A stretch of DNA of 50,216 nt from an uncultured Chloroflexus sp. (GTDB taxonomy: Bacteria > Chloroflexota > Chloroflexia > Chloroflexales > Chloroflexaceae). The stretch lies in the NCBI RefSeq assembly GCF_937129525.1, contig NZ_CAKZNK010000117.1, positions 1 through 50,216 of the forward strand, read 5' to 3'. Under the pieces are notes generated by a model, which was not told the DNA's origin, ran no database searches, and saw only the letters and a list, made by a program, of their open reading frames with translations. The translations under genes were made by a program, and so were the position numbers. This document shows positions 31,753-37,044 of the stretch, in pieces. Numbering within the stretch: position 1 is the first letter of the stretch; every line of letters begins with the position of its first letter.

Positions 31753-32766
31753 ATGGAAACGCTTGAATTGTCGCTGATTACGCCAAGGGTTACCCTGATC
31801 ACTGCGGCTGAAAACTATGGCCGCTTCGCCATTGCGCCTTTGCAGCGCGGCCACGGCTCGTCGCTCGGCAATGCGTTGCGCCGGGTGCTCATCTCGTCGA
31901 TTCCCGGCGCTGCGGTCACGCGGATTAAGATTGCAGGGGTCATTCACGAATTTTCTGCCATTCCCGGCGTTGTTGAAGACGGAACGCAATTGGTGCTCAA
32001 TATCAAAGGCATTCGTCTGCGCTCGTACAGCGATCGCGCAGTGGCGTTGCAACTAGTAAAGCAAGGCCCAGGCCCGGTCTTCGCCGGCGATATTGACGCT
32101 CCCAGCACCGTTGAGATCGTCAATCCGCAACACTATCTCTGCACCATCGACGATGAACATACGACGTTTGAGATGCAGTTGACGGTCGAGCGCGGTCGTG
32201 GTGTGCAACTGGCCGATACGGTGAGCGGGATGCCGATTGGCGAGATTGCGGTCGATGCGCTCTTTAGCCCGATCCCGCGCGTGAACTTTGTGGTGGAAGA
32301 GATTGGCGATGATCTGCTCACCGGGTACGACCGCCTGATTATCGAGATCTGGACCGATGGCACCATCAAGCCGGGTGATGCGTTGAGCCATGCTGCTCAG
32401 ATTTTGAGCCAGTATTTTGGTCGGATTGTCAGTCTGAACCAGCCGGTGGAGCAAGAGCAATCACCCAATCTGCCACCGCCCATCCCTGATGAGATTGCTA
32501 ACCGCACGATTGATGAACTTGGCCTAAGCACCCGTACCTACAATAGTTTGCGCCGGGCAGAGATCCATACTATCGGCCAGTTGTTGCGTCTTGACGAGCG
32601 CGGCCTGATGGGAATCCGCAATTTAGGCGCCAAAGGGATCGAAGAAATCCATCTCCGGCTGGCCGCTCTCGGCTATCGCAGTGGTGAATCTGGCGCTGGC
32701 CGGGCATCTGCCTCGCTGACCGATCAGGCCACTCCGCCCACCAATACCCCCCATACAGAGGAGTGA
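31753..32766 (+). CDS. rpoA: RNA polymerase alpha subunit
   Basis: The protein has 337 residues. The N-terminal assembly domain shows FAIAPLQRGHGSSLGNALRR (GxxxxLGNALRR core), VLISSIPGAAVTRIKIAGV and EFSAIPGVVEDGTQLVLNIK. The C-terminal alpha-CTD (about residues 255-315) shows TIDELGLSTRTYNSLRRAEI and LGAKGIEEIHLRLAALGY, with the helix-hairpin-helix that contacts UP-element DNA. The ATG is preceded by CAGGA. In most bacteria rpoA sits in the rpsM-rpsK-rpsD-rpoA-rplQ cluster; here neither neighbour is ribosomal and rho follows after 11 bp. The sequence looks fully functional. Confidence 0.97.
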   Translation: METLELSLITPRVTLITAAENYGRFAIAPLQRGHGSSLGNALRRVLISSIPGAAVTRIKIAGVIHEFSAIPGVVEDGTQLVLNIKGIRLRSYSDRAVALQLVKQGPGPVFAGDIDAPSTVEIVNPQHYLCTIDDEHTTFEMQLTVERGRGVQLADTVSGMPIGEIAVDALFSPIPRVNFVVEEIGDDLLTGYDRLIIEIWTDGTIKPGDALSHAAQILSQYFGRIVSLNQPVEQEQSPNLPPPIPDEIANRTIDELGLSTRTYNSLRRAEIHTIGQLLRLDERGLMGIRNLGAKGIEEIHLRLAALGYRSGESGAGRASASLTDQATPPTNTPHTEE

Positions 32767-34085: not shown

Positions 34086-34715
34086 ATGACTGAGCAAACG
34101 TTCCTGAGCGGGATCGTGATCGCCGGTGGCCGCAGTCGTCGTTTTGGCACTGATAAGCGAAGGCTGCGGCTGTGGGGCGATTGTGGGCCGCGATTGCTCG
34201 ATCATGCGGTTGCGCTGTTGCAGCCACTATGCGTTGAGACAATTGTTGTGCTCAATGATGCCGAGGCATGGCCTGATATACCAGCGCGACTGGTGTGCGA
34301 TGAACAGCCGGGGAGCGGAGCGATCGGTGGTTTAATCAGTGGTTTGCAGGCGATGCGCGCGCCGGCAGCTCTGGTGATTGCTGCCGATATGCCACTGATC
34401 GCGCCACAATTGCTGGCTGCGCTGGCGCAGTGGCCCTTTACCGGCGATGCGCTGGCGCCAACGCTCCCCGGTCAGCCTGACCGACCGCAACCGCTGCTGG
34501 CAGTCTACCGCCAAAGCGCTTTACCGCCATTGCGCCGCGTTTTCGATCGCGGCGAGCGCCGGTTGCAGACTGCTTTGAGGTCGCTGTCCTGGGTTGATCC
34601 TGGCCCTGAACTCTGGCAACGTTACGATCCCCTCGCGCGCTCGCTGATGAATCTGAATACCCCAGATGATTTAGCCATGGTTCAGGCATGGCTGAAGAGC
34701 AATTCGCCATGTTGA
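34086..34715 (+). CDS. mobA: Molybdenum cofactor guanylyltransferase MobA
   Basis: The 209-residue enzyme attaches GMP to molybdopterin to make the bis-MGD form used by DMSO-reductase-family enzymes. The nucleotide-binding start IVIAGGRSRRFGTDKRRL matches the G-G-x-S-x-R-x-G-x-D-K signature. Also seen are DEQPGSGAIGGLISGL and ALVIAADMPLIAP with the metal-binding Asp, and the C-terminal LMNLNTPDDLA typical of MobA. It starts at an ATG 33 bp after rho and lies on the same strand. Together with modABC it indicates an active molybdenum pathway, although no bis-MGD enzyme is encoded in this window. Confidence 0.93.
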   Translation: MTEQTFLSGIVIAGGRSRRFGTDKRRLRLWGDCGPRLLDHAVALLQPLCVETIVVLNDAEAWPDIPARLVCDEQPGSGAIGGLISGLQAMRAPAALVIAADMPLIAPQLLAALAQWPFTGDALAPTLPGQPDRPQPLLAVYRQSALPPLRRVFDRGERRLQTALRSLSWVDPGPELWQRYDPLARSLMNLNTPDDLAMVQAWLKSNSPC

Positions 34716-34834: not shown

Positions 34835-36190
34835 ATGGACATTGTAGTCCACATAACGACCGGAATGAGCACAATGCAGCAACGTTCCATCCCCAACCTG
34901 GTCTTTGATTCGGCCCTCGATCAAGGTTCGTCGGCGCTAGACGCCTTGCGGGCAAGATTGCTGGTGGCCTACGATGGCGCCTGCGCGATGAGTGGCTGTA
35001 AGGTGAGCGCTGTGTTGCGCCCGGTTTTGATCGACTCACAGGGTCCAGCAGAACCACACAATGCATTGTTATTGCGCGCCGATCTGCAAATCCTCTTTCA
35101 AGCCGGTCTCCTGACAATTGATGCCATGACGCTAGAAGTGCTGGTTGCGCCGGAGCTACGTGATAGCGAATACGGTGCTCTGGCTGGCAGACGGTTGCGC
35201 CAGCCCAGTCGCCTGTCCTTGCGCCCCGATCGTCATCTGCTGGCCGCTCACCACCGCTTCTTTCAGCTCGAACGACCGATGTCCGATATGCTCGCCGTTC
35301 AGCGTCCGTTGCTGCGCCAGATGTTGTCGGTGCAGAGTTGGGTGAATAGTATCGCGTTTAGCCCTGACCAGCAGTGGCTGGCTACCGGTTCGTGGGATGG
35401 GATGGTACGGCTCTGGCGGTTGCCTGATGGACAGTTGCAGCGCGTTATTAGCGGCAATATCGGCGAGATTAACGCAGTGTCTTTTAGCGCCGATGGCCGG
35501 TTGATTGCGGCTGCCGGTCGTCAACACGGCGCGCGTGTCTGGCGGGTGAGCGATGGTGAATTGCTGTTCCATCTCGGTGATGAACAGCGTAGTGGCGCGT
35601 TTTTCAGCGTTGCCTTTCAACCACACGGCAATGTGATCGCAACTGGCGGCTGGGAGCCGGTTGTTGGTATCTGGAATGCTGCTGATGGTCGGTTGAGCCA
35701 TTCCTTGTCTGGGCATGAAGGGGTCATCAACAGTGTTGCTTTTAGTCCTGATGGCAAATTGTTGCTCTCTGCCGGTCACGATCGCGTCGCGCGGCTCTGG
35801 CAAACACAGAGCTGGTCACTGATGCGGACGATGCAATTTCACAGCGATGCAGTCTTCAGCGTGGCGTTTAGTTCTGACGGTCAACTGGCGGCGAGCGCTG
35901 GTGGTGATGGGATGATCGTGGTCTGGCGGGTTAGTGACGGTCATCCGCTGCAAATCATGGCAACCCCTTCTGGCGCTTGCTTTAGCCTTGCGTTTAGCCC
36001 CGATAATCGCTATCTGGCCAGCGCTCATTTCGGTCGTATCGCGCGGATCTGGAAGGTGCAAGATGGCACTCTATCGTGGGAACTGAGCGGTCATAATGAG
36101 AGTGTCACTGCGGTTGCATTTGCGCCCGGTGGTGATGTGCTCGCCAGTGGCAGCTTTGACTCAACCGTGCGCATCTGGTCTTATCAGTGA
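34835..36190 (+). CDS. Degenerate HNH_2 domain fused to a seven-blade WD40 propeller
   Basis: The protein has 451 residues (ATGs at 34865 and 34874 are alternative starts; no clear Shine-Dalgarno sequence). Residues about 28-140 follow the HNH_2 nuclease layout: LLVAYDGACAMSGCKVSAVL, HNALLLRADLQILFQAGLL, then EVLVAPELRDSEYGALAGRR. In active members the middle reads EAAHI and LHxLFD; here these are RPVLI and LQILFQ, so the catalytic and a metal-binding His are gone. Residues 165-451 hold seven WD40 repeats (for example NSVAFSPDGKLLLSAGHDRV, TAVAFAPGGDVLASGSFD), enough for one closed beta-propeller. It is likely a cytosolic protein-binding scaffold. The methyltransferase gene starts at its stop codon. 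Confidence 0.8.
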   Translation: MDIVVHITTGMSTMQQRSIPNLVFDSALDQGSSALDALRARLLVAYDGACAMSGCKVSAVLRPVLIDSQGPAEPHNALLLRADLQILFQAGLLTIDAMTLEVLVAPELRDSEYGALAGRRLRQPSRLSLRPDRHLLAAHHRFFQLERPMSDMLAVQRPLLRQMLSVQSWVNSIAFSPDQQWLATGSWDGMVRLWRLPDGQLQRVISGNIGEINAVSFSADGRLIAAAGRQHGARVWRVSDGELLFHLGDEQRSGAFFSVAFQPHGNVIATGGWEPVVGIWNAADGRLSHSLSGHEGVINSVAFSPDGKLLLSAGHDRVARLWQTQSWSLMRTMQFHSDAVFSVAFSSDGQLAASAGGDGMIVVWRVSDGHPLQIMATPSGACFSLAFSPDNRYLASAHFGRIARIWKVQDGTLSWELSGHNESVTAVAFAPGGDVLASGSFDSTVRIWSYQ

Positions 36191-36192
36191 TC

Positions 36193-37044
36193 ATGTCAGC
36201 TCATCATTGCGCGGTGCGCCTATTCTATCGCCAAACCGATTGGATGTTTCGCGTGCTTGGCGTGATTCGCGGTTCCCAGGCTATGCATGCCGGTTTGTGG
36301 CAGCAGGCGCGCACACATCGCGCGGCGCTCCGCTCAATCGATGAGACAATGTTGACTGCTGCCCAACTGGCACCTGGTGAGTGCCTGCTCGATGCCGGTT
36401 GCGGCGCCGGCGCGAGCGCCAATAGTATTGCCGCTCACCACGAGGGGCCTGTCATCGGTCTCACTCTGGTTCCAGAGCAGGCAAAACGCGCTCGACGTGG
36501 AGGAAAAGCTCAGTTTCTCTGCGCCGACTATGCCGCTACACCGCTGTGTGACGCGAGCTGCGATGTTGTGTGGATGCTGGAGAGCATTTGTCACGCTCCT
36601 GACAAGCCGGCATTGTTGGACGAAATTGTCCGTTTGTTGCGTCCAGGCGGTCGATTGGTTATCGCCGACCGCTTTGCTGCGCGGCCTGATCTTAGCCCCG
36701 CCGAGCGTGATGCCCTCCGATCGTGGCTGTATCCATGGGCAATGCCCGATCTGGTCACGGCTGATGAGTTGATTGAACTGGCCGCTCTGGCCGGCCTGCA
36801 ACTGAGTCAGCGCACCGATCTGACACTCAGCGCCGGGCCATCGCTTCGCTTTCTCGGTCACTTTGCTCAACTGACCCTGCCGGCTGCGCTGGTATTGCGC
36901 GCTCTGCGCCTGCAATCCGATCTCCAGATTGCGGCAATGCGCGGTTGTATTGCCCAGACTCACACCTTCAACGCCGGCCTCTGGCGTTACTGTTTACTGC
37001 GGTTTGACAAGCCATCTGGCCGTATCTCTCGCGAGTATACTTGA
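36193..37044 (+). CDS. Class I SAM-dependent methyltransferase
   Basis: The protein has 283 residues from the ATG at 36193 (a GTG at 36187 overlaps the previous stop). It has a Rossmann methyltransferase fold: motif I CLLDAGCGAGASANSIA, then VIGLTLVPEQAKRAR, FLCADYAATP, DVVWMLESICHAPDK and EIVRLLRPGGRLVIADRF. The first 45 residues and the C-terminal 100 residues (with an LGHFAQLTLPAALVLRALRL helix) resemble UbiE/tocopherol-methyltransferase-like small-molecule enzymes. The substrate, possibly a pigment, quinone or lipid, cannot be fixed. It is tightly coupled to the HNH-WD40 gene and 42 bp before the thioesterase gene, suggesting a three-gene unit. Confidence 0.88.
   Translation: MSAHHCAVRLFYRQTDWMFRVLGVIRGSQAMHAGLWQQARTHRAALRSIDETMLTAAQLAPGECLLDAGCGAGASANSIAAHHEGPVIGLTLVPEQAKRARRGGKAQFLCADYAATPLCDASCDVVWMLESICHAPDKPALLDEIVRLLRPGGRLVIADRFAARPDLSPAERDALRSWLYPWAMPDLVTADELIELAALAGLQLSQRTDLTLSAGPSLRFLGHFAQLTLPAALVLRALRLQSDLQIAAMRGCIAQTHTFNAGLWRYCLLRFDKPSGRISREYT

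Follow-up and report, generated by a model that had tools for sequence, protein, structure and literature searches.

The closest described folds to the N-terminal domain considered here are the HNH_2 nuclease domains of TagI and VcaM4I. Passages of PMC7897488 describe H224 of VcaM4I as the general base, D250 as a metal ligand and D254 as a proposed metal ligand, all three being required for full activity in vitro; alanine mutants at these positions are drastically impaired in vitro and show some remaining restriction when overexpressed. The same passages assign a structural role to N241 and report that the HNH domain dimerises. For the C-terminal part, the nearest described proteins are prokaryotic seven-bladed WD40 proteins, such as the WD40 domain of PDB 5yzv and the designed ring 7big. 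HNH and WD40 or other propeller domains both occur in described conflict and immunity proteins, according to passages of PMC8195603 and PMC7159879, and no HNH-WD40 fusion of this kind appears in those passages. Neither an HNH-WD40 fusion nor a dead bacterial HNH domain was described in the open-access titles and abstract openings among the matches listed, and the searched terms are absent from PMC5587647.

Here we describe such a fusion in a 50,216-nucleotide stretch of DNA from an uncultured Chloroflexus sp. (the window). Its N-terminal domain is like those of TagI and VcaM4I in predicted fold, in the structural Asn and, at a score just short of the curated cut-off, in sequence profile, but the general base and metal ligands are replaced and the RxGQxxF motif of non-fused relatives is lost. 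It also differs in that the HNH_2 domain is N-terminal with a propeller after it, and in that no modification sensor (PUA/EVE/SRA or similar) was found in the N-terminal domain, where Pfam gives HNH_2 only. The propeller has seven blades, as in the prokaryotic WD40 proteins named above (TM-score 0.96, normalised by target), but is joined to a pseudo-nuclease. Both parts belong to known families; what is new is their combination with a shared loss of catalysis.

The gene and its two domains

The open reading frame at 34835-36190 is real. Its listed start, 34835, is probably not the true one, which we place at 34874 because the residues MQQ encoded there are common to the orthologs of the genus and the 13 codons upstream are not conserved; residues are numbered from 34874. 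The frame is full-length in the six other genus genomes with a contig spanning the gene, and in a seventh (G002) the contig stops within it. A short, poorly conserved N-tail is followed by an HNH_2-type domain, a variable linker and a WD40 propeller.

34874..36190, + strand: HNH_2-WD40 fusion gene, 438 aa, probable start at MQQ, shared by homologs
34934..35269, + strand: catalytically dead HNH_2 (beta-beta-alpha metal) domain, residues ~21-132, from PF13391, AlphaFold2 and TagI/VcaM4I
35027..35029, + strand: Leu52, replacing the general-base His (VcaM4I H224)
35060..35062, + strand: Asn63, the structural Asn of H-N-H, kept (VcaM4I N241)
35087..35089, + strand: Gln72, replacing the metal-ligand His/Asp (VcaM4I D250)
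35099..35101, + strand: Gln76, replacing a probable metal-ligand Asp (VcaM4I D254)
35309..36187, + strand: seven-bladed WD40 propeller, residues ~146-438, from Pfam stretches, predicted strands and PDB matches

In six of the eight genus genomes (L033:8554, L034:5698, L035:5981, L036:7404, L037:7452 and L038:8262) the fusion start codon is preceded, at a distance of some tens of bases, by the palindrome CCACGTGG, which is missing from that place in the window and in L039 and may serve as an operator site.

When searched alone, the N-terminal domain matched HNH_2 (PF13391) with an E value of 3.8e-4 and 20.7 bits (20.7-20.9 across runs), against a curated cut-off of 21. The same model was matched by all 34 members of our alignment A4 (E<=0.1), in agreement with an earlier, sequence-only reading of this DNA, which held that the HNH_2 framework is kept. 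A4 comprises 15 fusions and 19 non-fused relatives. Left out of it were L072 (a near-copy of L071), L096 and L026 (divergent, with the first His kept and Asp at the second-His position), the partial match L098 and G018:C158 (His, His and Asp kept in both), a short match in G026 and three viral loci; the G002 fusion was left out of A4, A5 and the dN/dS comparison. AlphaFold2, run on the N-terminal domain with the 34-row alignment, predicted a core of two strands (48-52 and 64-68) and a helix (69-76), with a mean pLDDT of 85.3 and block means of 93-98 over residues 21-130. The best PDB structure matches of this model were TagI (Z 13.6, 119 residues, rmsd 3.3) and VcaM4I (Z 10.3, 120 residues, rmsd 3.8), the next row being at Z 7.8, and VcaM4I was also found in the PDB by the alignment profile (E 3.4e-9). 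Foldseek gave no match for the N-terminal domain at E<=0.001; its best row was VcaM4I, at 1.3e-3, and weaker rows were mostly HNH proteins (Cap5, Cas9), together with the unrelated threonylcarbamoyladenosine dehydratase and axonemal chains. Both structure-comparison programs use one model, and the alignment behind that model includes intact relatives; the fold is a prediction backed by homology rather than an independent measurement. As such, the beta-beta-alpha metal fold, whose absence would have spoken against the earlier reading, is predicted with high confidence.

The two substitutions named in that reading, EAAHI to RPVLI at the catalytic His and LH to LQ, are real in the alignments, and a third, FD to FQ at the position of VcaM4I D254, had been overlooked. 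The correspondence of the VcaM4I positions to L52, N63, Q72 and Q76 was established by HMMER alignment and A4. The general base is missing in all 15 aligned fusions (Leu in 14, Ala in one), while the second-His position holds Gln in seven, Ala in seven and Cys in one, and position 76 holds Gln in five, Arg in four, His in three, Ser in two and Asn in one. By comparison, H, N, H and D are all kept in the 19 aligned non-fused relatives, with Glu for Asp in one. The visible residues of the G002 fusion, outside A4, also read L/N/Q/Q. An active HNH domain needs a general-base His and metal ligands, in place of which the window protein has L52, Q72 and Q76. Given the sequence and the VcaM4I mutants, the fusion HNH domain very probably no longer cuts, as had been expected, and an automatic annotation based on the HNH_2 match would be misleading. 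An active nuclease with ligands at shifted positions, the other outcome that would have spoken against the earlier reading, was rejected, as no ligand set is conserved across the 15 fusions.

Further features separate the fusions from the non-fused rows. An inter-strand loop three residues shorter is common to the fusions. The R and Q of the RxGQxxF motif are present in 19 of 19 non-fused rows and the G and F in 18, whereas among the 15 fusions R and F are never found, Q occurs in two and G in one. Conversely, D54, P58, Q110, R113, R128 and F130 are each present in 14 or 15 of the 15 fusions and in none to three of the 19 non-fused rows; Asp54, in 14 fusions and one non-fused row, has no conserved partner ligand. 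Cys42 is found in all 15 fusions and in five of 19 non-fused rows. Every one of the 34 rows retains Arg68 and Asp70, which lie next to the former active site and correspond to Ala and His in the active VcaM4I. The net charge of the domain ranges from -4 to +5 in the fusions and from -8 to +5 in the non-fused proteins, so that the fusions are not unusually basic.

The seven-repeat WD40 propeller of the earlier reading was borne out. Pfam finds seven stretches of WD40 (PF00400, E 6.3e-61), and the 25 of 58 families listed as matching the whole protein are all WD40 or propeller models, with no modification sensor among them. From residue 146 on, 28 strands are predicted, that is, seven four-stranded blades, as expected of a WD40 propeller. 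Seven-bladed propellers head the list of PDB matches, and the ring resembles peptide-binding WD40 rings such as that of WDR5. The best plasmid-borne propeller matches differ in carrying kinase, trypsin-like, caspase-family or HTH annotations.

Distribution, origin and selection

The domain profile matched 21 of 82 genomes of the order (E<=1e-12, with up to 55 candidates scored per genome), 16 of them with the fusion and five with non-fused proteins only. Fusions were present in 16 of the 41 searched genomes of the family and in none of the 41 others of the order; they occur in all eight genomes of the window's genus, in five of six of g6, in the single g7 genome and in both of g12. A search of the phylum (E<=1e-8, up to 11 candidates scored per genome) matched 27 of 400 genomes, with 12 fusions among them, none outside the window's family. 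A scan by pattern over 84,980 species, one genome each, which finds only loci fitting its patterns, returned 10 loci: three in Chloroflexus, four in Oscillochloris, two in Candidatus Viridilinea and one in a Chloroflexota bacterium.

In the tree, 15 fusions form one clade (support 100/99), and a single fusion with a single loss of catalysis therefore suffices to account for them. The nearest non-fused rows include two proteins of Oscillochloris fontis, at weak support (88/58). These non-fused HNH_2 proteins (L073 and L031), and that of Viridilinea (L074), which are among the nearest relatives of the domain at weak support, differ from the fusions in having H/N/H/D intact, the HNH_2 domain at the C-terminal end and no propeller. 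No WD40 was found at E<=0.001 in the larger non-fused HNH_2 proteins L068, L075, L087 and L098. Two of these, L068 and L075, have open frames of 864 and 1326 aa in which the HNH_2 domain is intact and lies at the C-terminus, and L075 has a sub-cut-off match to the BREX BrxC helical domain. We rejected a viral element: the three relatives on viral contigs all keep the general-base His, and each is in a short open reading frame with nothing after the HNH domain. The non-fused HNH_2 protein on one of the viral contigs (L113) is intact, and its best segment is 46% identical to the dead domain. A plasmid element was also rejected, there being no plasmid record that covers 80% of the protein.

The HNH part is the more constrained of the two domains. 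Its mean pN is 0.098 and its median dN/dS 0.055 (finite dS in 9 of 21 pairs), compared with 0.155 and 0.078 (15 of 21) for the propeller, while the median dN/dS is 0.36 for the N-tail (20 of 21) and 0.23 for the linker (8 of 21). These 21 pairs come from seven genomes of the genus, and with synonymous sites near saturation the ratios are rough; the HNH part is also more constrained than the propeller by pN alone. Across 15 sequences from four genera, 23 positions in residues 21-132 are invariant. Strong purifying selection acts on the dead domain, which is thus repurposed and not decaying. A pseudogene was rejected on the strength of this selection and of the tree, and it follows from the selection that the domain has been retained for binding. 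The fusion is a natural case of a nuclease fold that lost catalysis, apparently once, and was then held under selection at least as strong as that on its partner domain. With a small protein and 16 orthologs found, the use of a dead HNH domain becomes a testable question.

Gene neighbourhood

In the window the fusion gene lies between the following two genes.

34086..34715, + strand: MobA-like molybdenum cofactor nucleotidyltransferase, below curated NCBIfam cut-offs; upstream neighbour in 8/8 genus genomes
36193..37044, + strand: SAM methyltransferase of small-molecule type (Methyltransf_11), with its probable ATG 2 nt downstream of the fusion gene

The 4-nt overlap of the two reading frames in the open reading frame list requires a GTG start, to which homologs give no support. 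The order rpoA, rho, mobA, fusion, methyltransferase, thioesterase and response regulator is found in all seven genus genomes that cover the region completely, counting the window; G002, the eighth, breaks off within the fusion at a contig end. The rpoA gene beside rho (31753-32766) is a second gene for the RNA polymerase alpha subunit, the other copy being on contig C58, at 47% identity. The fusion and the methyltransferase are a few nucleotides apart in four of the seven Chloroflexus loci, and in the other three they are separated by repeat-bearing inserts of ~0.3-0.8 kb. The inserts are at L033:6375-7205, L034:3955-4349 and L036:8760-9040, with repeats of up to three copies of 201 nt (L033). 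No DNA-methylase model was found for the methyltransferase among all 10 Pfam matches and the 25 of 38 NCBIfam matches listed, and PADLOC gave a local match to mad2 (4.2e-15) that covers part of a 492-position model. A restriction-modification pair was rejected because the methyltransferase is of the small-molecule and not the DNA type.

The coupling to a methyltransferase that the sequence-only reading proposed is valid for Chloroflexus, where the methyltransferase is the direct neighbour, and there only, with repeats between the genes in the three loci noted above. Close homologs of the methyltransferase occur in 10 of the 41 family genomes, every one with the fusion (Fisher P 7e-6, a value inflated by relatedness, as seven of the 10 genomes are of one genus). 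At E<=1e-50, homologs were found in nine of 301 genomes of the phylum sample, all of the same family as the window. Six of the 16 fusion genomes have no close homolog (G012, G018, G027, G029, G064 and G002, the last being 82% complete, with the contig end inside the fusion). In the three genomes outside the genus with a close homolog (G034, G062 and G013), the methyltransferase gene is within ~30 nt of a gene for a xanthine-dehydrogenase-type FAD/FeS subunit, which is thus its closest neighbour outside Chloroflexus; in G013 the methyltransferase and the fusion are on different contigs. None of the xanthine-dehydrogenase-type subunits of the family scores above the TIGR02963 cut-off.

The fusion itself is followed by ureidoglycine aminohydrolase in four of the eight fusion genomes outside the genus (G034, G013, G029 and, by position, G062). 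Next after it is a gene of the hydantoinase/carbamoylase amidase family, which in G034 is above the TIGR01879 cut-off and below the allantoate-amidohydrolase cut-offs. In G018 the aminohydrolase is on another contig than the fusion, and the neighbours of the fusion are different ones in G012, G018 and G064. Over 41 genomes the presence of ureidoglycine aminohydrolase showed no association with the fusion (5/16 versus 7/25, P = 1), and the gene was found in none of the eight Chloroflexus genomes. One Oscillochloris genome (G027) has an aminohydrolase fragment ~0.2 kb after the fusion (L081:11503-11661; 53 residues, 25 bits, E 2.9e-5, below cut-off), which suggests that a purine-ureide operon was lost in that genome.

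Possible roles of the fusion protein

Our preferred explanation, to which we give about an even chance, is that the fusion protein is a non-catalytic adaptor or scaffold for protein docking. In this account an ancestor of the Chloroflexus/Oscillochloris/Viridilinea group would have acquired an HNH_2-type nuclease domain on a single occasion; the domain would have lost the catalytic base and the metal ligands, and its place at the N-terminus of a WD40 protein would have become fixed. The pseudo-HNH fold may form a conserved docking surface, perhaps dimerising, that involves Cys42, Asp54, Gln110, Arg113, Arg128 and Phe130, while the propeller would bind a client protein. It had been proposed that the domain binds DNA or a partner; the loss of RxGQxxF, the ordinary charge without positive enrichment, the new conserved residues and the peptide-binding type of propeller lead us to infer that the ligand is a protein and make DNA the less favoured of the two. 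Gene context makes the SAM methyltransferase the best candidate client, together with the products of purine-ureide or xanthine-dehydrogenase-type operons outside Chloroflexus. As neighbours differ between genera, no single client accounts for all fusions, and an obligatory partner encoded next to the fusion is less likely given this variation. Several observations count against an adaptor: Arg68 and Asp70 are kept throughout A4, so that residual nucleic-acid contact is possible; six fusion genomes have no close methyltransferase homolog; the presence of ureidoglycine aminohydrolase is not associated with that of the fusion across the 41 genomes; Cys42 is also found in some non-fused rows; and the VcaM4I alanine mutants described in the passages of PMC7897488 show some restriction when overexpressed. 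In a bolder form, which we regard as unlikely, a domesticated restriction-type nuclease scaffold would organise a module of SAM methyltransferase and molybdo-flavoenzyme (purine-ureide) in green filamentous phototrophs, and Chloroflexus would later have lost the pathway and kept the scaffold and the methyltransferase. Through the fusion, an uncharacterised methyltransferase with links to purine catabolism genes becomes accessible to study.

The likeliest of the alternatives, though still an improbable one, is that the dead HNH domain continues to bind DNA. The protein would then act as a regulator tethered to DNA, its target being, for example, the operon it belongs to, and the propeller would recruit a partner. 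The predicted retention of the fold, the conservation of Arg68 and Asp70, the place of the gene ahead of an operon-like cluster in four of the eight genomes outside the genus and the restriction that dead enzymes can retain on overexpression (passages of PMC7897488) are all compatible with such a role. However, the motif of the non-fused relatives is lost, the charge of the domain is no higher than theirs and Pfam gives nothing except HNH_2 in the N-terminal domain; moreover, the Ala and His that replace Arg68 and Asp70 in active VcaM4I indicate that this pair is not needed for DNA cleavage there.

We consider it doubtful that the fusion belongs to a defence or conflict system, in which it would be inactive itself and would serve as sensor, decoy or inhibitor for active HNH restriction enzymes related to it, e.g., via mixed dimers. 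TagI and VcaM4I are the closest folds, the VcaM4I HNH domain dimerises, both domain types are described in conflict proteins (in the passages cited at the outset), and intact non-fused HNH_2 proteins also occur in two fusion genera (G012, G018 and G029). Against this are the stable synteny beside rho and rpoA in the genus, the slow evolution, a weak PADLOC match for HNH (3.5e-5) and the lack of any non-fused HNH_2 relative in the eight Chloroflexus genomes at E<=0.001.

A nuclease that still cuts with unusual ligands (Asp54, Asp70 or, in some species, His76) is very unlikely. Asp54 is indeed near-universal in the fusions and rare elsewhere, and the three His residues at position 76 are in Chloroflexus rows, but the general-base position is Leu or Ala in every fusion, and the variation at positions 72 (Q/A/C) and 76 (Q/H/R/S/N) yields no conserved ligand set. 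Least credible is non-adaptive decay, in which a relic domain drifts on a functional WD40 protein: catalytic residues and one motif have been lost, but drift is disfavoured because protein-level change is slower in the HNH part than in the propeller, and the 23 invariant positions also stand against it.
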